Below, piece after piece: positions 22,464 to 58,319 of a stretch of DNA of 64,000 bases. Position 1 is the stretch's first letter; each line of letters opens with the position of its first letter. The position numbers and the translations under genes are program-made. The DNA is taken from the NCBI RefSeq assembly GCF_022811705.1, contig NZ_CP094528.1, forward strand, positions 3,224,001-3,288,000. The letters run 5' to 3'. Origin of the DNA: Agromyces larvae (GTDB lineage Bacteria; Actinomycetota; Actinomycetes; Actinomycetales; Microbacteriaceae). The notes beneath the pieces are model-generated. The model did no database searches and was not told where the DNA came from. It saw only the letters and a list, made by a program, of their open reading frames with translations.

Positions 22464-24022
22464 GCGAGGCATCCGAGCTCCCCGGAGCATCCGAGGCATC
22501 CGAGCTCCCCGAAGCGGTGCAGCCGGCCGAACCCGACCACCGCTCGGCCGACGTGGTGGTCGTCGGCGGCGGCGCGGCCGGCCTGGTCGCGGCGCTCGAG
22601 TGCGCCCGGATCGGGCTGCACGTCATCGTGCTCGAGCGACGCGATCGGGTGGGCGGCTGCGTCGCCCGCATCGACCTCGACGACCTCGCCCTCGACGCGG
22701 GCGCCGAATCGTTCGCGACCCGCAACGGCTCGGTCGCGGCCCTCGTCGAACGGCTCGGACTGGGCGATCGGGTCGAGTCGCCGAACCCCGCGGGGGCCTG
22801 GCTGGCGTGGGGCCGGGGCGACGAGGTCGCGGCGGCGCCGCTGCCGAAGACGGGCGTGCTGGGCATCCCGGCGAACCCGCTCGGCGAGGACGTGCGCGCG
22901 ATCATCGGCTGGAGCGGCGCGTGGCGCGCATATGCCGATCGCGTGATGCCGATCCTGCGCATCGGCCGCGCCCGCAGTCTCGGGCAGCTCGTGCGCTCGC
23001 GCATGGGCGCCGCGGTGCTCGACCGGCTCGTCACGCCGATCTCGGCGGGCGTGTACTCGGCGAACCCCGACGACCTCGACCTCGACGTCGTCGCACCCGG
23101 GCTGAACGAGGCGATGACCCGCACCGGCTCGCTCTCGGGCGGCGTCGCCCAACTCGTCGGCTCGCGTCGTGCCGGCAGCGCCGTGCTCGGCCTGCGCGGC
23201 GGCATGCACACCCTCGTCGAGGCGCTCGTCGCCGAGCTCGACCGGTTCGGCGTCGAGGTCGTCACCGGCGCCGAGGTCACCGGCCTCGAGCGGCACCGGT
23301 CGGATGCCACGACCTCCGCCGAACCGGCCGGAACCGCCGGCGCCGGCTGGCGCGCGCGGGCCATCGCCTCCGACCGCGACCTCCTCGTCGACGCGCGCTT
23401 CGCGATCCTCGCCGCCCCGGCCCGCACCTCGCGCCGGCTCCTCACCGACGCCGTCGAGGGCTGGGCGGACGCGAGCGACTGGCCGGCCGCGGCATCCGTG
23501 GAGCTCGTGACGCTCGTGCTCGACGCGCCCGCCCTCGATGCCGCGCCGCGCGGAACCGGCGTGCTCGTGGCCGAGGGCACGCCCGGAGTGTCGGCCAAGG
23601 CGCTCACGCACGCGACGGCGAAATGGCCGTGGCTCGCCGAGCAGGCGGGCGGCCGCCACGTCGTTCGGCTGTCGTACGGTCGCGCCGGCGCCGCCAACCC
23701 GCTCGACGGGCTCGACGCCGACGCGGTCGCCGCGCTCGCGCTCGCCGACGCGTCCACGCTGCTCGGCGTGCCGCTCGACGCCTCGATGCTGCGCGCCTCG
23801 GGTCGCACCGCGTGGCGCGACGCGCTCTCGCACGCGTCCCTCGGGCAGCGCGAACGCGTGCGGGCGCTCGAGGCGGCGCTCGCCGCGGAGCCGGGCATCG
23901 AGGCGACGGGCTCGTGGATCGCGGGCACCGGGCTCGCTTCCGTCGTGCCGCACGCGCGCGACGCAGCCGGCCGCATCCGGCAGCTCGCGGTGCAGGAGGG
24001 TCACGCTCCCGCGGCGGACTGA
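22460..24022 (+). CDS. hemY: Coproporphyrinogen III oxidase (protoporphyrinogen oxidase family, HemY/CgoX)
   Basis: A 520-residue FAD enzyme. Because hemQ is present, it most likely oxidises coproporphyrinogen III to coproporphyrin III with O2 (CgoX role) rather than acting on protoporphyrinogen. The FAD-binding loop VVVVGGGAAGLVAALE starts at about residue 31. VGGCVARIDLDDLALDAGAES follows, and the C-terminal FAD segment is GSWIAGTGLASVVPHARDAA. The GTG start overlaps the hemE stop. The N-terminal 27 residues are an acidic extension made by an imperfect duplication (EASELP twice). In related genomes hemQ usually follows directly; here 13.75 kb of other DNA comes first. Confidence 0.92.
   Translation: MSEASELPGASEASELPEAVQPAEPDHRSADVVVVGGGAAGLVAALECARIGLHVIVLERRDRVGGCVARIDLDDLALDAGAESFATRNGSVAALVERLGLGDRVESPNPAGAWLAWGRGDEVAAAPLPKTGVLGIPANPLGEDVRAIIGWSGAWRAYADRVMPILRIGRARSLGQLVRSRMGAAVLDRLVTPISAGVYSANPDDLDLDVVAPGLNEAMTRTGSLSGGVAQLVGSRRAGSAVLGLRGGMHTLVEALVAELDRFGVEVVTGAEVTGLERHRSDATTSAEPAGTAGAGWRARAIASDRDLLVDARFAILAAPARTSRRLLTDAVEGWADASDWPAAASVELVTLVLDAPALDAAPRGTGVLVAEGTPGVSAKALTHATAKWPWLAEQAGGRHVVRLSYGRAGAANPLDGLDADAVAALALADASTLLGVPLDASMLRASGRTAWRDALSHASLGQRERVRALEAALAAEPGIEATGSWIAGTGLASVVPHARDAAGRIRQLAVQEGHAPAAD
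22466..22510 (+). repeat. 18-bp direct duplication in the hemY 5' end
   Basis: GAGGCATCCGAGCTCCCC occurs at 22466-22483 and 22493-22510, encoding EASELP twice in the N-terminal extension. Confidence 0.8.
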
Positions 24023-24356
24023 GGGTGTCATCCCCGGACGCTGGCGGTTGTGTCGAGCAATAGCTGCCCCGACCCGCGGATAAGCGCGATTCGGTGAGCG
24101 CAGCCAAACCGTTCTCAAGTTGGCCGCGTGGGGAGCCACCTCCGCGAGGGTCGCTCGTGCGACTGGGCCAGGACCGAAGCGGCGCACAAATGTCTGCGCC
24201 GTCCGGAACGGAGGCGCGGATCGATGCCAGAGAAACAGCGAACATACACCTTGCTGCGTTCTTGATGGCTCTGACTAGCCCCTGTTATGGGGTACGCGCT
24301 AGGGGTCCTGGAGAGCCTAGATTCCTGCTCACGTTCCCTACAACGTGGAGGTTGGC
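24023..24356. other. Intergenic region between hemY and the rhs gene; insertion boundary
   Basis: About 330 bp with visibly lower GC than the heme genes. A minus/plus arm pair GGCGCACAAATGTCTGCGCC near 24180 could form a hairpin. TAGATT at 24318-24323 is a candidate -10 for the rhs gene. No integrase, tRNA or target-site duplication was found, and the short open frame beginning at 24094 has no recognisable content. Confidence 0.5.
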
Positions 24357-27300
24357 TTGGACGTTCGGCGCCGCTTGGTCGATGTGATGATTGCTTCGGT
24401 GCTGTCGGTGGTGCTGGTGGGTGCCTTGGCGCAGCCGGTGACTGCGGCGGAGCTGGCTCAGCCGACTGAGCCTAACGGTACAGTCGTCGAGCCGTTGTTG
24501 CCCGACGAGTCGGAGCCAGTTGATGAAGCGGCGGGTGAAGTGGTCGAGCCGGCGGATCCTGCCGGCGATTCCCTTTTGTCGCCGCTCGCGTCGGAGCCTC
24601 CGGTTACGTTGGAGGAGAGTCCTGGCGGGGGACGAGATGAGGCTGGCGCGGACCAGCCGGGGTTGGAAGATTTCGATCCTCTCTCCGCCAGAGTCGTTGC
24701 GCGGGAGGCGTTCTCGCAGACGTTCGCAGCAGAGGACGGTTCGCGCGTAACGCAGTTCTCGGATGTTCCGCTGAACGTACGCGTTGATGGCGAGTGGAAG
24801 CCGGTGTCGACGGAGCTGGCGGGTCGCGGCGCGTTCGGATGGTTGGGTATGGGAGGTGCGGAGGTCCGGGACCATCCGTTGCGACCGGTGTTCGCGGAGC
24901 GGGCCGATGAGGCCCCGCTCTTGATGGTTTCTCAGGGTGGACAAAGGGTCGGTTTCACGTTGGTCGGGGCGTCGTCGGCGCGGATGTCGCGGGATCTGGC
25001 GCCGTGGTCTGGTGAGAAGGGCCGGGTGGTATATGCCGATGTGTTCCCGAACACTGATCTGGTGTACGAGGTCGAACAGACAGGCGTGAAGGAGTTGTTC
25101 CAACTGGCGAAGGCGCCAGGTCGAAAGGGCGTGTCCTCGTGGCAGTGGCGGGTCGACGCGCCAGGTCTGCATCTGCGGGAGGATCCGGACACGGGGGAGA
25201 TCGTGTTTGAGGAGGCATCGGGCCGAGTGCGGATGGTGATGCCCCGTCCGACGATGTGGGACTCCTCGGGCGCGTTGGGTGAACGGGCGAACGAGCAGGC
25301 CAACGTTGACGCGACAGTGGTGCGTGACGGTGACGGGTGGAATCTGACGTTGCGGCCGGATCGTGCATGGTTGAACGCGAAGGATCGTGTTTATCCGGTG
25401 ATGGTCGACCCAGTGGTGTATCAGTTCGGTGCTTCTGAAACGCATGCGTACAAGACGAACGGGCAGTACAACCACAACTACGGTGTCCAGGTCGGGAACA
25501 CGAACGGGACCGGCACATGGCGGACGATGGCATTGTTCAGTTGGGGGGAGATCGCCGGTAAGCAGGTCACGGACGCGGCAATCGCGCTAGGCAACCAGTC
25601 GGATGACTCCACTACGACGGAGCGGTGGGGCGGATTGTACGCGTCGAACAACTTCCAGTACGAGTCACTTGGCGGATATCTCGGGTCAGCTCACTATTGG
25701 CATGGCGGCGGCGAGATTGTGGATCTAGATTTTGCGCAAGCAATGGCGTCGTGGACCGCTGGTGGCTCCACCGCGATGTGGTTAACGTTCACCGGCGCTG
25801 AGATCGCTGATTTCACGTACAAGCACTATCGCCAGTACGACCTGTTCGTGGCGTGGAAGGAGTACCCCCGGCCGGGAACTTTGGCGGCGGGTGCACCGGC
25901 CGCGAACGCGGTGAACACATCGTTGACACCGACACTGAAAGTGGACGGGTACTCCTTTCCAGCGGGCACGATTGGACAGCACTGGTTCAAGGTGTCGGAG
26001 AATCCGAACCCAGACGTAAATCCGGTGTTCTCAACCGGCTGGCAGGCATCCGATTCGGTGAAGGTGCCCGAGACGGTGCTGTTGCCCGGACGAACGTACT
26101 ACTGGAAGGCGTACGTCCGGGACGACTGGGACAGTCACTTGAACGTGTCGACTCAGCGCGGATCAGCAACCTGGGCGTTCACAACGGCGTCGGTGCCGGT
26201 GGCTGCGGCTGCGACGGCGTCCCCTAGCGACGGGGCGGTGGTCGTATCGACGCAGCCGACCTTGTCGGTCGTAGCGCCCGCGAATCCGGCGGGGCGTACA
26301 TTGAAGTATCGATTCCGAGTCGCGACGGGTGGGGACTCGCGGACTGGTGGGGTGTTGTTGTCGAACTGGTTGGATACTCCGACCTGGACCGTGCCGGCTG
26401 GTTCGTTGCAGAGCGGAACGACGTATTCGTGGACGGCGTTGACGAAAGACCAGGGGTACGGGGTGGAGTCGCCGACGCCTTGGGTCAGCCGATTCACGGT
26501 GGACGCCAGACTGGGGGTCTCGGGCCCGTTCCCTGTCGGCGTAGCCGGGCCTGTCGCGGTGAACCTGGCGTCTGGGAACGTGTCGGTGTCGTTCAGCTCA
26601 CCCACCGTGTCCACGGTTGGTGGACCGATGGGGATGTCGTTCACCTACAACTCAAAGCACTCGTCGAATGCGGGACTGCGCGGTGAGTACTTCGACGCGA
26701 CGACTTCCGCCGGGCAACCGCAGACATGGGATTTCGCGAAGGCGAATCGGGTGCTCGCACGGACGGACACGCAGGTGCGCTTCCAGTGGGGAATTGGGTC
26801 ACCGGGCGAGGGGGTGCCGGTCGAGGTCTTCATGGCCCGTTGGAGCGGATTCGTGACACCGCCTTCGGCAGGAACCTACACGTTCGGAGTGGTGCGTGAT
26901 GATGGTGCGCGGCTGGACGTTGATGGCAGCAGAGTCCTTGATCAGTGGACGAACACGGCACCCGTTGGGGTCCAATGGGGGACCGCGAAGACGCTCGCAG
27001 CCAGGCCGGTGCCTTTGAAACTGGAGTACTTCGAGAACGCCGGAGCTGCGGTTATCGAGTTGTGGGTGAGAACCCCTGACGGCAGTGAGGCCCCGGTTCC
27101 TGCGTCGTGGTTCACGAAGTCGGCTGAGATCCTCCCGGACGGCTGGGCGTCGTCGACGTTCATGAGTGGTGATCTCGGCACGTTCACGAGGGTCCGCGTC
27201 GAGGAGGGATCTGTGACGCTCTTGGATCAGCAGGGAGGAACGCACGCGTATACGAAACAGCCGAACGGTGGGTATGCGCCTCCCCCCGGTGAGACCGGTG

Positions 27301-30300
27301 TCGTCACGATCACGGGTGACGGGCGTGTGTCGTTCACGGACGGCGCTGGAGTGGTTCATGTGTTCCGCGCCGACGGTGCGATCGAGCAGGTAACCAGCCC
27401 GCTTGACGCGAAGAAGCCGGCGCAGCCCTCGATCGAATACCGCGCCGACGGCCGAGTTCAGCGCACGTTCGACCGGTTGGGTGGGATGACCGCGCCGCGA
27501 GAGGTGTGGTACTTCTATGGTGGCGACCAGGTTGCGGGCCCGCTCACCGGCGCAGACAGTGATGGCTCGGGCAAGGCGTGCCCGCCCGCGACAGCTGGCG
27601 CACCCGAGGCGCCGGCAGGATTGCTGTGCCGAATCGTATATCCCGGGCATGTCCCAGGCATGGCCGACACGACGCGACTGTTCTACGATGCCGAGAAACG
27701 GTTGATCGGCATTCAAGACCCAGGGAACGAAGAAGTCTCCTTCGGGTACGACGGCGAACGCCGGCTGACATCGATCCGGGACGCGCTGCAGACCGACTGG
27801 TTGCGCGCGAACCCGAGCCGTGACGCCGGGCCCACGAACCGGACCAGCATCACCTACGATACGACCGGTCGGGCGAGCACGGTGACTCTTGCTGCACCCG
27901 ACGGCACGACAATCGCGTCGCAGTCCACGTACAGGTACACGTATGGGGAGGCGTCGACTACGTATGTCGATGTCACTGGTCAAGACGAGTGGGGCGTGCC
28001 TGCGACCGGTCACACGCGCACCGTGGTTTTCGACGAGGCCTGGCGTACCATCTCGGATTCCAGCCCATCAGGCTTGACCGCGACGACGGTGTGGAATGCG
28101 AAAGACCAGATGCTGTCCCGCACAGATCCGTTGGGACGAATGTCGACCGTGATCTACGACCAGCAGGATCGGGTGACCGACGGGTACGGCCCAGCGCCGG
28201 GCACTTGCTTCGGGCCGGACCGTCGCCCCCTGGCCAACACAGCGACGGAGTGCGGGATCACTGCGGCCCACTCCTCCACCCGTTACGACGAGGGGATGGT
28301 CGGATTGAACGCACAATGGTTTGACAACCTGCAACTTGCAGGAGTTCCCAAAGCGTTCAGCCTCGGGATCCCCGCGATCGCTGACGGCAGCATCGACAAA
28401 GACTGGGCCGGAAACGCCCCGATCGCCGGAATTCCGACCACGAACTGGTCGGTGCAGTTCACCGGCACGATCACGTTCCCAACCGCGGGCTTGTACCAGT
28501 TCCAGACCTATTCAGATGACGGCTCCCGCGTCTGGGTCGATGACAATCTCACCGTCGACTACTGGCGTGCCGGTGCGTGGAGCGCGTCACCTGTTGGGGT
28601 CTTTACCCCGACCGCTGCTGGGGAGGTCGCTCGGATCCGTGTCGCGTTCTTCCAATCGACCGGTCCCTCCGCGCTGACGTTGACCTGGAAGAAGCCAGGG
28701 GACACCACCTTCACTAAGGTGCCTGGGGAGGCGCTTGCCCCGGCGTATAACTTGGCGACCTCATCCACGACGGACGACTCGACCAATGGTCGACCGGATC
28801 CCGCTGTGCCCGCCATCACGACGGCGACCTCATTTGGCGCAGCCCCCTGGCTTGGCCTCCCATCGACGTCGACCGTCGACCCGGCCGGCATCAACCTTCG
28901 CACGGCGACCAGTTATGACGATCTGAATCGGCGAACTTCGCGAATGCTGCCGGCCGGTGTCGCAGCAGGAGCCACCGTGGAGCAGGCAGGAACCGTTTAC
29001 GCCTACTACGGCGACACGCAGACCATCGCGCAGGCACTGCCCAGCGATCCAGCCATCTCCGACGCGGATGCGAAGATCTGTGGGATCGACGAAACCACTC
29101 CGCAGAACGGGGCGCTCAAGTCTGCGACCTCGCCACCGGCAGCCGACGGGTCCCGGGTCGTGACACAAACCATCCACGATGTATGGGGCCGGCAAGCCGG
29201 TGCAAAGCGCACAGGAGACGCGGGATGGACGTGCACCCGGTACGACGCACGCGGTCGCACAATCCAGGTCGACTACTCTGCCTATGCAGAGAGTCCGGCC
29301 CGAACCGCCGTGTTCGAGTACGCGGTCGGTGGGAATCCCCTTAAGCAGACTGCGAGCGACCAAGCTGGAGACATACAGACCGAGAGCGACATACTCGGCC
29401 GTCCGATCAGCTACACGGACGTGTGGGGCGTCACGACTACGATCGAGTACAACGTTCTCGGGCAACCCGTTACCTCAACCGTCACACCACCGGGCGGCAC
29501 ATCCATGGTCTCCGAGGTCACCTACAACACTGACGGGCAAGTCGAGTCGATTGCCATCGACGGCCGCCCGCTGGCCGACGCGGAATACCACTCAGGCGAG
29601 CTACGTGTCGTCAACTACGGCAACAACACCGCGCTGGCTTCAAACCTGAAAGACGAAGCGGGTCGATCCATTTACGCCATGTGGGCATTCGAACTCGACG
29701 CTCCCATTGTCCCTGAGAATGCGAGCCCCCTGGAAGACACGGTGGCATCGCTCGCCTTGCGCTCCCAATCCGGTCGCGTGACTGGGCACGCGATCATGAC
29801 TCCCGGCTCGTGGACTCAGCCCGACACCTACTCGTTCGACGCCGCGGGCCGGCTGACGCGCGCCGTCCTCGCGGGACAGACGATCGACTATGCGTTTGCC
29901 GCAAGCGGAGGGTGCGGGTCAAACACCCGCGCCGGTGCAAATGGGAACCGCACAAGCTGGAAGGTGACTCCCTCAGGCGGGCAGGCGCGGACCACGACGT
30001 ACTGCTACGACCAGGCCGATCGGCTCATCTCGACTACGGTGACGGGTACCTTTCCTGTAGGCGAAACTCCTTCACCGGTGAATGCGGGAATCGCCGCTTC
30101 CAACTTGGCCTACGACGCGCACGGGAACACGACCAGACTCGTCGACCAGGAGCTTGAGTACGACGTGGCCGACCAGCACGTCGCAACCGAGCTCGCCGAT
30201 GGCACCCGAGTCGAGTACATGCGGGACGTGGTCGGCCGGATCGTGCAACGCACGCAGATCGGTGGTGAGAACCCGGGCACGACCCGATATGGGCACACCG

Positions 30301-31226
30301 GCGGTGGGGACGGTGCTGCATTGATCTTGGACGCCGGGAACACTGTGGTCCAGCGAATCCTGTCCCTTCCGGGCGGCGCAACCGTCACGCTAGGCGAGAC
30401 CGAAACCTGGTCGTATCCGAACCTCCACGGCGATATCCTCGTGACCGCCGACAGCTCCGGCACCCGGACCAGCGAGCCCTACCGGTATGACCCGTTCGGC
30501 CAACCAATCGACCGCGCAACCGGGCTAACCGGTACGACCCGCGCCGATGACACCGGGCCCGACAACGCGCATGGCGATGCGGACTACGGATGGTTCGGCC
30601 AACATCGGAAACTCACCGAGCATGTGGGAAGTGTCTTCACGATCGAAATGGGGGCTCGCCAATACGTTCCCGCGCTCGGCCGATTCCTCGAAGTTGACCC
30701 CGTCGAGGGCGGCGTCACCAACAGTTACGACTATCCAGCAGACCCCATCAACAAGATCGACCTGAGTGGCACGGAGGAGTGGTGGATCTCTGCCGCCAAA
30801 TTCGTTACCGACTCACCCGTGGCGCAGGCGGCGCTCTTTGCGTGCGGGTTCATGGTGGGCGCCATTTCGGTCGCTTGCGGCGCGATCGAAGGGGCGGCCT
30901 ACGCTGCACAGGGGCGCTGGGTTGAAGCGGGGTTGAGCGTAGCCGGCGGATTTTTGGGAGCTGGGGTTGGCATCGCCCTCAAGGCGGGGGCCAAACGGGT
31001 TGCCGTCGCCGCCGCCCGCGAGATCCCGATGGCGACTCGCGCACTGAGCCTGAGGCTCGAACGAGGTGCAACGACGATGTACTTGAAGCAGACTGAGGTG
31101 GCTCGAAACGCCATTGGACATCTCGTCGGCACGCTCCCGGGTACCTTGTATACGCCGCCGAGTGCTCACGGAAGCGTTTCGCGAGCGTACGTTCAGTACA
31201 GCGGCGGAAGGAGTATCGCCTGGTGA
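24357..31226 (+). CDS. Secreted RHS/YD-repeat protein with two PA14 domains and a C-terminal toxin-like tip
   Basis: A 2,289-residue exported protein of the Rhs polymorphic-toxin type. Residues 1-31 are a signal peptide ([19 protein letters not shown]). An N-terminal beta-rich region follows, then PA14 domain 1 (~770-910, from LRGEYFD), YD repeats (~1110 onward, e.g. [14 protein letters not shown]), PA14 domain 2 (~1316-1459, LNAQWFD to TLTWKKPGD), more YD repeats, and the Rhs core ([30 protein letters not shown]; ending NKIDLSG at 2138). The last 151 residues are a variable tip: two Gly/Ala-rich hydrophobic stretches, then ~70 polar residues of no known family. Codon usage is markedly AT-richer than the neighbours, a sign of transfer. 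TTG is chosen for the GGAGG five bases upstream; GTG 24345 and GTG 24384 are alternatives. Confidence 0.88.
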
Positions 31227-31702
31227 TCGCGACTGCTCGAGCCACGCGCCTGTGGCATCTCGGAAACGGGGGAAGAGTCGTTGCCGTCATGCTGTGGGGT
31301 TCGTTGCTAGTCTGCTCCATCATCGGTGGCGCCCTCTCCGCCCTGGGTGACCCGTGGACCTGGTTTCTCCTTCTCGTCAGCGTCGGGTTCCTTGTTCGTA
31401 GCGTGTTCTTCCGGGTCGAACTTCGCGAGCGCGAGGTGCTTGTCGTGTCCTGGTTGCGGACATACAAGATCCCGAGACACGACATCGAGAACGTGCTGGT
31501 CGGGAGGTACTCGGGTGCGCTGACCCGGTTCACGAGCAGCGGCTTCTTCAGTCGAGTCTTCTGGACCGTGGGGTTCGCCGTGGACCATGGCGACGACCGG
31601 TCCTACCCCGTCACCTTGCTTCCGCGACGCAGCGTGGAGCGCGCGGCTGCTCAGCTGGGCCAGAGCCTGGGCGTTGCGGTGATCGGATCGACTTGGACGT
31701 AG
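31223..31702 (+). CDS. Membrane PH-like protein, probable immunity partner of the Rhs protein
   Basis: A 159-residue protein whose GTG start overlaps the rhs stop by four bases (GTGA), so it is translationally coupled to the toxin-like tip. Two hydrophobic helices (residues ~18-41 and ~45-63) are followed by a cytoplasmic domain with the pattern of bacterial PH domains ([29 protein letters not shown], and a final helix [15 protein letters not shown]). In Rhs systems the gene immediately after the tip normally encodes the specific antidote. The membrane location would suit a toxin acting on the membrane or entering through it. Immunity function is an inference from position. Base composition matches rhs. 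Confidence 0.65.
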
Positions 31703-31777
31703 GTGCCGCTGGATGACAGCCAAGCACTCTTCCGCTCGACGATCTCCGAGCTGGGCGGGGTGCAGACGCTCGACTGA
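31703..31777 (+). CDS. Very short open frame after the immunity gene, possibly a remnant
   Basis: Starts GTG directly after the preceding stop and encodes 24 residues (PLDDSQALFRSTISELGG...). It has no known family. Its position suggests the stranded end of a displaced gene or a meaningless frame. Confidence 0.2.
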   Translation: MPLDDSQALFRSTISELGGVQTLD

Positions 31778-31854
31778 GCGGCGTCGGCGCGCATCGTCGT
31801 GGCAGGCTGGGGTGGCCGCGGCACGGGGCAGCGGGGTGAAGGGAACACTGCGGG

Positions 31855-32733
31855 ATGGAATCGAGGACACTGCTGCACGACCGGCTGCGCGCCGCCGGCA
31901 TGACCGACATCGTCTCGATCGAGCCGGCAACGGGCGGACTCGCGGCGACGGCGGGCGTCGCGCGCTCTGCCGACGGGGCTGCGCTGTTCGTCAAGTCGTT
32001 CGACGAAGCTCCGTCGGCGGGCGCCTTCGAAGCCGAGGCCGAAGGCCTCGATGCCGTGCGCCGGCTCGGTGGCGTGGCAACGCCCGAGGTGTTGCTCGCG
32101 ACCCGCGACGTGCTGGTGCTGGAGGCGTTGCGCCCTCGGCCCGACTCGGAGGCCTTCTGGACGCGGCTCGCGCACACGCTGGCGCACCTGCACCTGAGCA
32201 CGATGCATCCGCGGTTCGGATGGCACCGCGACAACTCGCTCGGCCGCCGCCGACAGGTCAACACCTGGGAAGACGACGGGTTCGAGTTCTTCGCCAGTCA
32301 CCGGCTGCTGCGGTGGCTCGACGAGCCGCGCGTGCAGGCCGCGCTCGACAGCGCCGATCGCGCCGCGCTCGAGCGGCTGTGCGCCCGGCTCCCCGAGCTG
32401 CTGCCCGAGCGCCCCGCATGCCTCACGCACGGCGACCTGTGGGCCCAGAACGTGATGTCAACGCACGACGAGCGTCCAGCGCTCATCGACCCGGCGGTCT
32501 CGTACACGTGGGCCGAGGTCGACCTCGCGCACCTCTGGACCACCGCGCCGCCGCCCGAGGCTCGCGCCTTCTTCGACCTGTATGCGGAACTCACCTCGCT
32601 CGACGCGGGCTGGCGCGAGCGGATGCCGATCATCCAGTTGCGCCAGCATCTCGCGGTGATCGCCCAGTTCGACCACGACTGGGGTGCAGCCGAGATCGTG
32701 CGCGCCACGCTCGCGCCCTTCCGCCGACGCTGA
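31855..32733 (+). CDS. Fructosamine kinase family protein
   Basis: A 292-residue aminoglycoside-kinase-fold protein of the fructosamine-3-kinase/ketosamine kinase family. Members phosphorylate sugars attached to protein amines so that the adduct falls off, a protein-repair role. The catalytic loop is LTHGDLWAQN and the metal-binding Asp is in ALIDPAVSYTWAEVDLA, with FGWHRDN earlier, as in FN3K proteins. The ATG has GAAGGGA ten bases upstream. GC content and codon use are again typical of the host, so the foreign rhs segment ends between 31702 and this gene. Confidence 0.88.
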   Translation: MESRTLLHDRLRAAGMTDIVSIEPATGGLAATAGVARSADGAALFVKSFDEAPSAGAFEAEAEGLDAVRRLGGVATPEVLLATRDVLVLEALRPRPDSEAFWTRLAHTLAHLHLSTMHPRFGWHRDNSLGRRRQVNTWEDDGFEFFASHRLLRWLDEPRVQAALDSADRAALERLCARLPELLPERPACLTHGDLWAQNVMSTHDERPALIDPAVSYTWAEVDLAHLWTTAPPPEARAFFDLYAELTSLDAGWRERMPIIQLRQHLAVIAQFDHDWGAAEIVRATLAPFRRR

Positions 32734-32786
32734 CACCGAGCTCCCAGTCGCATGGCCGCAGCGGAATATGAATCCGCGCAACCCCC

Positions 32787-56976: not shown

Positions 56977-57507
56977 CTACGACGGATTCGCGTCCGCGAG
57001 GCACTCCGCGAGGTCGATGTCGGCCTCTTCGAGCTGTGCGACCAGCCCATCGAGGGTGTCGGCCGAGTCGATGCCGCGTGCGTCGAGACAGTGGCGAAGC
57101 ACCTCCGCGGTCGACGTGTCATCCGGATGAGACAGTTGCCAGCGCTGGTCGATGCCGATGAACTCGGACTGATAGCAGGTCCGGTCGGTGCCATCATCGT
57201 GCGCCTTGCCGGGAACCGAGTACGAGATCACCGTGGCGTCCTCGTCGGTCACCAATACTTCGTAGCCACGCTCTGACATGCACGACCGGTATCGCGTGAA
57301 TCCATCGCGATACTCGGCTTCGGTCACGACCTCATCGGACAGCGCGTTCGTCTGTTCCGCCGATGTCGGCACGGGCGTCGAAGCCAGCGGTTCGGCGATT
57401 GATGCCACCGTCGCTCGATCCGCATCGGCGCACCCAGTGATGCACGCAGCCACCAAGATGACTAGCGCCCCACCCGTCGCCAGCCGGGGCATCCTTCGGC
57501 CGTTCAT
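56977..57507 (-). CDS. Putative lipoprotein of unknown function
   Basis: A 176-residue exported protein. Residues 1-25 form a signal peptide (RLATGGALVILVAACITGC) with two possible lipobox Cys; ITGC is followed by ADADRA, a usual mature start. The mature region has six Cys, Tyr and Asp-rich segments (YRDGFTRYRSCMSERGYEV, CYQSEFIGIDQRWQLSH, VLRHCLDARGIDSAD), suggesting disulfides. The family is unknown but recurs as secreted proteins in actinobacteria. GC is lower than the flanking genes. An upstream remnant ends 13 bp before its ATG. Confidence 0.72.
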   Translation of the reverse strand: MNGRRMPRLATGGALVILVAACITGCADADRATVASIAEPLASTPVPTSAEQTNALSDEVVTEAEYRDGFTRYRSCMSERGYEVLVTDEDATVISYSVPGKAHDDGTDRTCYQSEFIGIDQRWQLSHPDDTSTAEVLRHCLDARGIDSADTLDGLVAQLEEADIDLAECLADANPS

Positions 57508-57520
57508 GGCCACCCCGCTT

Positions 57521-57769
57521 CTACGTCGAAGACGTTCCATAGCCACTGATGTGATCGGCGCCGATAGTCACGGATTTGAACTGTGCCACGGTTGTCGTAC
57601 CCCAAGTCGGACTCGTCCAGAAGTCGTACGACTGATTCGGGTTCGGCGTCCAGTTCAGCTGCACTCCGACTTGGTAAACGTTGCACAGCTGTTGCGGGTT
57701 TTGGGTTCCGCCCCCACCGGCATTGCTGTAGCCATACAGCCAGAGGGTATAGGTGCTGTCCCGAGCGGT
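57521..57769 (-). pseudogene. C-terminal remnant of a secreted protein gene
   Basis: The minus strand has 82 open codons bounded by an in-frame TGA upstream and TAG at the end, with no start codon in suitable context. The translation (STYTLWLYGYSNAGGGGTQ, CNVYQVGVQLNWTPNPNQS, TVAQFKSVTIGADHISGYG) is rich in Tyr, Trp, Asn and Gly with regular beta spacing, which looks like real exported protein and not like a shadow frame. It sits 13 bp before the lipoprotein gene, so the two were probably an operon whose first gene has been truncated. Confidence 0.5.
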
Positions 57770-57854
57770 TCAAGAGGCACAATGCCAGATCAGTAGGGCA
57801 AATCGAACCGTGATGTCGGGCGCTGCTCCCCCGGGTTATGGGTGGGAGAGGCTG

Positions 57855-58319
57855 TCAGCGCGCGGCCTGCGCCTTCGCGACCGCGGCCTCAAGGGCCACC
57901 CACGGGAGCATCGCGCACTTCACGCGCATGACGTACTTCGAGACGCCGTGGAACGCGATCGCGTCGCCGAGCAGGTCCTCGTCGGGCTCGCCCGCGCCCT
58001 TCGAGCGCAGCATGGTGCGGAACGCGTCGGCCCGCTCGAGCGACTCCGCGACGGATGCTCCGGCGACGAGATCCACGAGCACCGACGTCGAGGCCATCGA
58101 AATGGAGCATCCGTCGCCCTGCCAGGCGACCGCCTCGACGCGCTCGCCGTCGTCGGCGAGGCGAACCTGCAGGGTGAGCTCATCGCCGCAGCTCGGGTTC
58201 AACTCGTGATGCGAGGCATCCGCGTGGTCGAGCACGCCCTCGCCGTGCCGCGCCTTCGAGTGCTCGAGGATGAGCTGCTGGTACAGCCCCTCGAGACCCG
58301 AACCCGACAGCCCGCTCAC
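57855..58319 (-). CDS. sufU: Iron-sulfur cluster assembly scaffold SufU
   Basis: A 154-residue SufU/NifU-N protein. It has the three Cys positions NPSCGD, GDGCSIS and VKCAMLPW, and the Asp next to the first Cys. In Gram-positives SufU is a zinc-dependent sulfur acceptor for SufS. The GTG start overlaps the sufS stop by four bases, coupling scaffold to desulfurase. No other suf genes (sufB, C, D) occur in the window. Confidence 0.92.
   Translation of the reverse strand: MSGLSGSGLEGLYQQLILEHSKARHGEGVLDHADASHHELNPSCGDELTLQVRLADDGERVEAVAWQGDGCSISMASTSVLVDLVAGASVAESLERADAFRTMLRSKGAGEPDEDLLGDAIAFHGVSKYVMRVKCAMLPWVALEAAVAKAQAAR

Follow-up and report, generated by a model that had tools for sequence, protein, structure and literature searches.

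A candidate Rhs toxin with an overlapping PH-like membrane partner in Agromyces larvae

Introduction

The closest described systems to the locus reported here are the CDI ionophore toxins, in which membrane-depolarising tips are accompanied by two-helix CdiI membrane immunity proteins (PMC11630599). Orphan Rhs tip/immunity modules (PMC3150448) provide a second comparison case, and the ExiCD immunity genes also occur as orphans (PMC12744356, PMC7456083). Our literature search for Agromyces Rhs toxins found no paper, and the Rhs tips of this genus seem to be unstudied. The search likewise returned no paper joining a PH domain and a polymorphic-toxin immunity protein, which is no proof that this combination is unpublished.

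Here, we analyse an Rhs gene and its overlapping neighbour from Agromyces larvae. They lie in a stretch of 64,000 nucleotides (contig NZ_CP094528.1, positions 3,224,001 to 3,288,000), hereafter the window, to which all coordinates refer. A preliminary description, made from the sequence by itself, had proposed a foreign toxin-like gene coupled to a candidate immunity gene.

Results

The Rhs gene

The Rhs gene (24357..31226) encodes 2289 residues from a TTG start, the open reading frame being read as 24345/24357-31226 with a TGA stop at 31224-31226. This gene, its parts and the downstream genes described below lie on the forward strand. The sequence GGAGG immediately 5' of TTG 24357 supports the start codon chosen in the preliminary description. 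Judged by eye from the translation, the protein begins with a putative signal peptide (24357..24449), a candidate export signal. Pfam matched PA14 over two stretches (E 6.9e-42), the first as a domain at residues 771-915 (26667..27101) and the second as a region placed via a GLEYA match, with its best stretch at residues 1365-1443 (28449..28685). RHS_repeat was matched over four stretches (E 2.8e-13) and the Rhs-associated core, residues 2044-2138 (30486..30770), exceeds its own cut-off (Rhs_assc_core), the combination that marks Rhs polymorphic toxin/immunity systems. The two PA14 domains, the complete core and the 151-residue tip that directly follows it (residues 2139-2289) are thus all as first described. 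The A. larvae genome is a single contig of 4.0 Mb, in which the sole match of the Rhs protein at E 0.001 is itself.

An acquired insert between hemG and ytxH

DNA comparison with G023, the nearest relative as judged by the holin-like gene (96%), delimits an acquired insert at 24023..32749, between hemG and ytxH. The match to G023 (88-89% identity) breaks off at 24022, where hemG ends, and picks up at 32750; the empty site of G023 has 44 bp between the two matching flanks. GC3 is 0.75 in the Rhs gene, 0.72 in the tip and 0.79 in the partner gene, versus 0.93 in hemG and 0.92 in hemE. The low GC3 and the insert missing in G023 agree with the gene being foreign. Its placement inside a heme locus is right for the upstream side, where hemE and hemG lie, but the downstream flank consists of ytxH and the holin-like gene.

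The holin-like gene had a match in 58 other genomes, and loci were built for the best 30 matches, of which 29 come from genomes other than A. larvae. Matches to ytxH were found in 29/29 relatives, and in 26 of them a flank of 1.5 kb, the length fetched, was enough to hold hemG, ytxH and the holin-like gene. The hemG-ytxH distance in the remaining three is ~1.3 kb in G010, ~2.4 kb in G020 and ~4.4 kb in G013. In the latter two, hemG and ytxH are separated by other genes, so the site takes other inserts and may be an integration hotspot. These two inserts (L202 9050-11480 in G020 and L203 953-5361 in G013) are similar to one another and, by eye, hold hydrolase, dihydrofolate-reductase-like and AraC-like genes, with more genes in G013.

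The A. larvae insert also contains a fructosamine kinase-family gene (31855..32733, Pfam) with a GC3 of 0.89. A 79% identical copy lies elsewhere in the same genome (G000:C1:1850911), and the other 59 genus genomes gave no match above 38% identity. The window has a second dip in GC at 57001-58000 (GC 0.636), apart from the cassette.

The partner protein

The partner gene, a candidate immunity gene (31223..31702), starts with GTG and encodes 159 residues. It overlaps the Rhs gene by 4 nt, although not from inside the Rhs stop codon as had been stated, since the GTG begins one base ahead of it. Hydropathy and the structure model place a predicted transmembrane hairpin at residues 15-60 (31265..31402), and the model gives a PH-like part at residues 64-157 (31412..31693) with a short first strand before the hairpin. 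In the model the membrane hairpin thus sits inside a PH-like fold, in keeping with the two-helix PH-like membrane protein that had been predicted. Two hydrophobic segments are present in 9/10 partners by hydropathy. The N-terminus of the A. larvae partner is basic and no Lys or Arg lies between the helices, so that both ends are predicted to be inside. Hydropathy and charge, taken by themselves, would thus fit a membrane immunity hairpin.

The partner reaches no cut-off in NCBIfam, PADLOC or Pfam. Ten partners scanned singly against Pfam (E up to 1) returned seven families, of which bPH_6 (PF10756) was weakly matched by two members (best E 0.027) and six others by one member each. The A. larvae partner has no Pfam match at E up to 1, and hence falls short of the bPH_6 gathering score. 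Following up both tip and partner by sequence in the PDB gave nothing credible.

Tip and partner across relatives

Separate six-frame searches were run with a tip profile (A1, from four tips) and a partner profile (A2, from ten partners) against a family set of 398 genomes and a genus set of 60 Agromyces genomes, both of which include A. larvae. Genome counts from these profiles are lower bounds, as in many genomes some of the initial candidates went unscored, with for example 9 of ~30 candidates scored for the tip and 8 of ~50 for the partner.

The A. larvae tip alone matched 4/299 family genomes, A. larvae itself included. In G222 and G217 the gene after the tip overlaps the tip stop and encodes a partner-type membrane protein; the fourth match (G352, E 3e-4) lies, by eye, in a permease-like frame. 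The A. larvae partner alone matched 9/60 genus genomes. In G048 the partner directly follows a complete Rhs gene that ends in this tip, and G051 has tip pieces in a broken frame ahead of its partner.

The tip profile matched at least 12/398 family and at least 3/60 genus genomes, and the partner profile at least 31/398 and at least 11/60, respectively. At 9/14 distinct tip-profile loci a partner-profile match lies directly downstream on the same strand, and these nine loci (A. larvae, G048, G222, G217, G442, G437, G270, G206 and G227) span eight genera. Four of them built the profiles and five did not. The small gene behind the tip therefore travels with it, as in Rhs systems. The partner start overlaps the tip stop in A. 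larvae, G048, G222 and G217. By a rough estimate, based on 43 partner matches in 398 genomes of ~3.5 Mb, adjacency within 1 kb would arise by chance at ~1e-5 per tip locus. Only the last part of the tip matches in G206, and a middle part in G270 and G227, so these tips look broken or divergent. The partner P0013 and the tip relative P0002 come from contigs of equal length, suggesting that they lie on one contig. In G217, the partner frame (L024 9739 onward) extends to ~452 residues, which may reflect a fusion or the loss of a stop codon.

Several candidates were set aside. Four tip-profile matches of E 1e-4 to 1e-3 were taken as chance matches to membrane proteins: those in G299 and G016 are CrcB-like by eye, that in G420 is ABC permease-like and that in G376 PAP2-like. 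In G412 (E 5e-19) the hairpin is present, followed by a different C-terminus and next gene. Five matches of an order-wide search were read. In L207 and L209 the hairpin is followed by a basic tail and, after it, a 2-TM region, which scored E 20 and 29 with the partner profile and was not counted; L208 and L211 have other C-termini, and L210 ends at the contig end. In L209 (G575, another family of the order) the hairpin tip and 2-TM region share one open frame, resembling a toxin-partner fusion.

Other tips on the same shaft

Rhs cores are found in 26/60 Agromyces genomes. Of 20 stretches fetched, 14 hold a shaft-type core (16 cores, all read), a part of all the Agromyces cores found; the other six (L111, L122-L125 and L127) have no core, tip or partner match. 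Behind none of the 17 other Rhs cores read (16 from Agromyces and one from G222) does this tip occur, and the genes that follow those cores differ in size and hydropathy. The C-terminal tip is thus swapped on a conserved shaft, as in Rhs systems. Among these other tips, L119 and L121 have a HExxH-like motif followed, by eye, by lipoprotein-like genes, as if protease tips with surface immunity, while L118 and L108 have tips with strong hydrophobic segments and, next to them, membrane partners that look unrelated and are 81 and 232 residues long. G041 stands out with 25 Rhs-core matches, the other Agromyces genomes searched having 0-7.

The tip

The tip divides into a hydrophobic hairpin (tip residues 1-80, 30771..31010) and a basic tail (tip residues 81-151, 31011..31223). 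Alignment of six tips revealed an invariant Trp, two Cys and a QGR motif (these last within the hairpin), an Ala, a Thr and several Gly, and no invariant Asp, Glu or His. Two hydrophobic segments are seen in five of the six tips and one in the sixth (L128). Hydropathy by itself would thus fit the membrane-inserting helices of an ionophore or glycine-zipper tip. GxxxG motifs were counted against 1000 shuffles and do not exceed the level expected from composition in five of the six tips; the A. larvae tip is weakly enriched, its count being equalled by 29/1000 shuffles. On these counts we do not take a glycine zipper as evidence that the tip forms a pore. The predicted structure of the tip was unusable (pLDDT 52.8, pTM 0.35).

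The final 75 residues of the six tips carry a net charge of +5 to +17 with 0-3 acidic residues. The hairpins of the other tips are 36-49% identical to that of A. larvae. Tail identity is 44% in G048, equal to that of its hairpin, and 11-32% in the other four, and the tails of G217 and G437 have no detectable similarity to other tails. P0002 and P0003 are 50% identical to A. larvae over residues 2120-2289, C-terminal end included. The A. larvae tip is not truncated relative to P0002, P0003 and G048, all of which conserve its extreme end. This end, together with a frame that is open through 2289 codons, argues against the tip or cassette being inactive in A. larvae, a degraded toxin retained with its immunity gene, for which broken tips at other loci are a precedent; we consider such decay very improbable.

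No family of Pfam, NCBIfam or PADLOC matched the tip above its cut-off, which upholds its description as belonging to no recognised family. The only match at E up to 1, to Imm5_like (E 0.13), scored 12.5 bits where the cut-off is 25 and was taken as chance, and a PDB sequence search gave no match better than E 0.65. A pattern scan of the genome contigs gave 258 matches with no relative among them, and the plasmids searched had no match to tip or partner. A Pfam scan of the stretches from six relatives returned only PIN_9, in L130 (E 0.67), and Ntox10, over the hairpin end of the L128 tip (E 0.046), both under their cut-offs; it gave no Pfam family for the L130 C-terminus.

The preliminary description had called the tip unique. 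This stands as far as listed families are concerned, but the hydrophobic Gly-rich half resembles a module found before other C-termini: in L130 a comparable hairpin is followed by a longer C-terminus and a different next gene, and in L208 by a HINT-like domain (by eye). Consequently, only the tail, or the hairpin plus tail, would be toxin-specific. The hairpin could then be a mere carrier across the target membrane, with the 55-75 residue basic tail acting as a cytoplasmic toxin, for example on RNA or DNA, and the partner either blocking entry at the membrane or binding the tail via its cytoplasmic PH-like part. The hairpins of L130 and L208, the equal likeness of tail and hairpin between A. 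larvae and G048, and the weak Ntox10 match are in line with a tail toxin, as is the DNase effector Tde1, which translocates via a GxxxG segment (PMC10240207). However, the tails are short and nearly devoid of acidic residues, they share no conserved His or acid, and those of G217 and G437 differ beyond recognition although the partner family is constant. RNases working with Arg, Lys or Tyr exist and would be compatible with such tails, yet on balance we find a tail toxin the less likely reading.

Solitary partners and orphan modules

Strong partner matches (E below 1e-50) occur in 8 of the 11 matching genus genomes, and all eight are rows of the A2 profile that were first found with the A. larvae partner alone; the matches in G011 and G031 are weak. 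In A. larvae, G048 and G051 the partner accompanies the tip or tip remains. The other five strong partners (G036, G035, G028, G054 and G012) are solitary, with no shaft-type core in the fetched 14 kb, and G036, G035, G028 and G054 have no Rhs-core match genome-wide, as is also the case for G051. Solitary and tip-linked copies are interleaved in the partner tree, the deep nodes of which are poorly supported.

The partner might instead be a small membrane PH protein of another role, such as envelope stress or lipid sensing, that is occasionally recruited behind Rhs genes. The five solitary copies, four of them in coreless genomes, would fit such a role, as would the weak resemblance of two of the ten partners to bPH_6 and the many weak partner-profile matches in the family that lie elsewhere. 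But a match in only 11/60 Agromyces genomes, with the solitary copies in differing settings by eye, indicates that the partner is no core gene, and it is paired at nine of the 14 tip loci. Intact partners also stand behind broken tips in G051 and G206, as would be seen with orphan immunity, and we judge another role improbable.

Orphan modules of the kind described for Rhs systems are present (G222 and L023). In G222, an orphan tip follows a core piece ending in a stop, with a different cassette behind the tip. Broken partner copies precede another Rhs core in L126 and L022 (G014), like a decaying immunity array. The broken tips before intact partners and the broken copies in G014 fit orphan immunity, which would explain the solitary genes but is not proven. 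A partner found widely without Rhs genes had been named in advance as evidence against a toxin-immunity pair; the five solitary copies among the eight strong Agromyces partners go part of the way there, and the broken tips fit orphan immunity.

Discussion

At the level of sequence, we find a shaft with swappable tips, a tip composed of a predicted hairpin and a basic tail, an overlapping partner, the pair in eight genera and an empty insertion site. The pairing of tip and partner, the other tips on the same shaft and the lack of any family at cut-off together indicate that the cassette is of the polymorphic toxin/immunity type and its family not yet listed, and the Rhs gene and its partner are probably toxin and immunity in general terms. 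The Rhs gene has the look of a far-reaching weapon aimed at competing bacteria, and the small membrane protein encoded behind it probably guards the owner. The new toxin/immunity family originally suggested is therefore retained in part: the polymorphic Rhs cassette, the recurrent coupled membrane partner and the absence from listed families favour it, and the solitary partners and the hairpin shared with other C-termini qualify it. The tip family and PH-bearing membrane partner are new within the libraries searched, whereas the kind of system is already known.

We propose, with a probability of about 0.5, that the cassette is a polymorphic toxin/immunity system gained by horizontal transfer, its Rhs protein being of the secreted, cell-wall kind, which we take to be WapA-like, with a depolarising tip blocked by membrane immunity. 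The Rhs protein would be exported with the tip shielded inside and, on contact with a neighbour, the tip would be released and delivered; tip release is known for other Rhs proteins. The hairpin may then insert into the cytoplasmic membrane of the neighbour and, with the basic tail, dissipate the membrane potential. In the owner's membrane, the partner, with both ends inside, would bind an incoming tip and stop its insertion or assembly, and the PH-like part could contribute a further contact on the cytoplasmic side, either to the toxin or to the lipid face.

Membrane action is favoured by the hydropathy of tip and partner, the absence of conserved catalytic-type residues and a partner that remains constant while the tails vary, and for depolarisation as the killing step we see roughly even odds. 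Counting against it, the hairpin before other C-termini (L130, L208) may be an entry module only. The weak GxxxG signal, the dissimilar tails of G217 and G437, the unusable tip model and the five solitary partners of eight also speak against depolarisation.

More tentatively, the partner could be an immunity protein of new architecture, with a membrane hairpin embedded in a PH domain, directed against membrane-active Rhs tips of Gram-positive actinobacteria, in which an entry hairpin plus basic tail has turned weapon. The solitary gene would persist as resistance once the toxin had decayed or gone and, if this is true, the spread of solitary partner genes is a record of past attacks. The tip/partner family is now defined and its copies include intact, orphan and decayed ones, so that toxicity and specificity, and what solitary immunity genes do, become testable. 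It also sets an entry hairpin common to several Rhs proteins apart from a possible toxin that barely exceeds that hairpin.

The locus has the genomic features of Rhs polymorphic toxin systems, and a depolarising tip with membrane immunity would have known analogues in the CDI ionophores, EsxX, TspA and Tse5. Like A. larvae, the CDI ionophores have a variable tip on a large exported protein, with hydrophobic helices, and an adjacent gene for a two-helix membrane hairpin with its ends inside, and their immunity proteins are divergent (PMC11630599). The carrier in A. larvae is instead an Rhs protein in an actinobacterium rather than CdiA, there is no conserved zipper shown, and its 159-residue partner has a PH-like part, for which the 72-100 residue CdiI proteins would be too small. 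The two TM helices of Imm-CdiI and Imm17 (PMC3482391) are shared by the A. larvae partner, which differs in its PH-like part and in having no Pfam match; bPH_6 is alike in its PH-like fold, although its weak matches are to other partners. The EsxX/ExiCD and TspA/TsaI systems are similarly Gram-positive, with a membrane-depolarising toxin and membrane immunity proteins (PMC12744356, PMC7456083), but have another carrier, type VII export and polytopic immunity (DUF443; five predicted helices in TsaI). Tse5/Tsi5 of Pseudomonas aeruginosa combines an Rhs shaft, a membrane-inserting C-terminal tip and membrane-bound immunity (PMC10684867, PMC12744356); it differs in type VI delivery, and its likeness to A. 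larvae is one of architecture. The resemblance proposed here between the A. larvae cassette and these membrane-depolarising tip systems lies in the way they would work.
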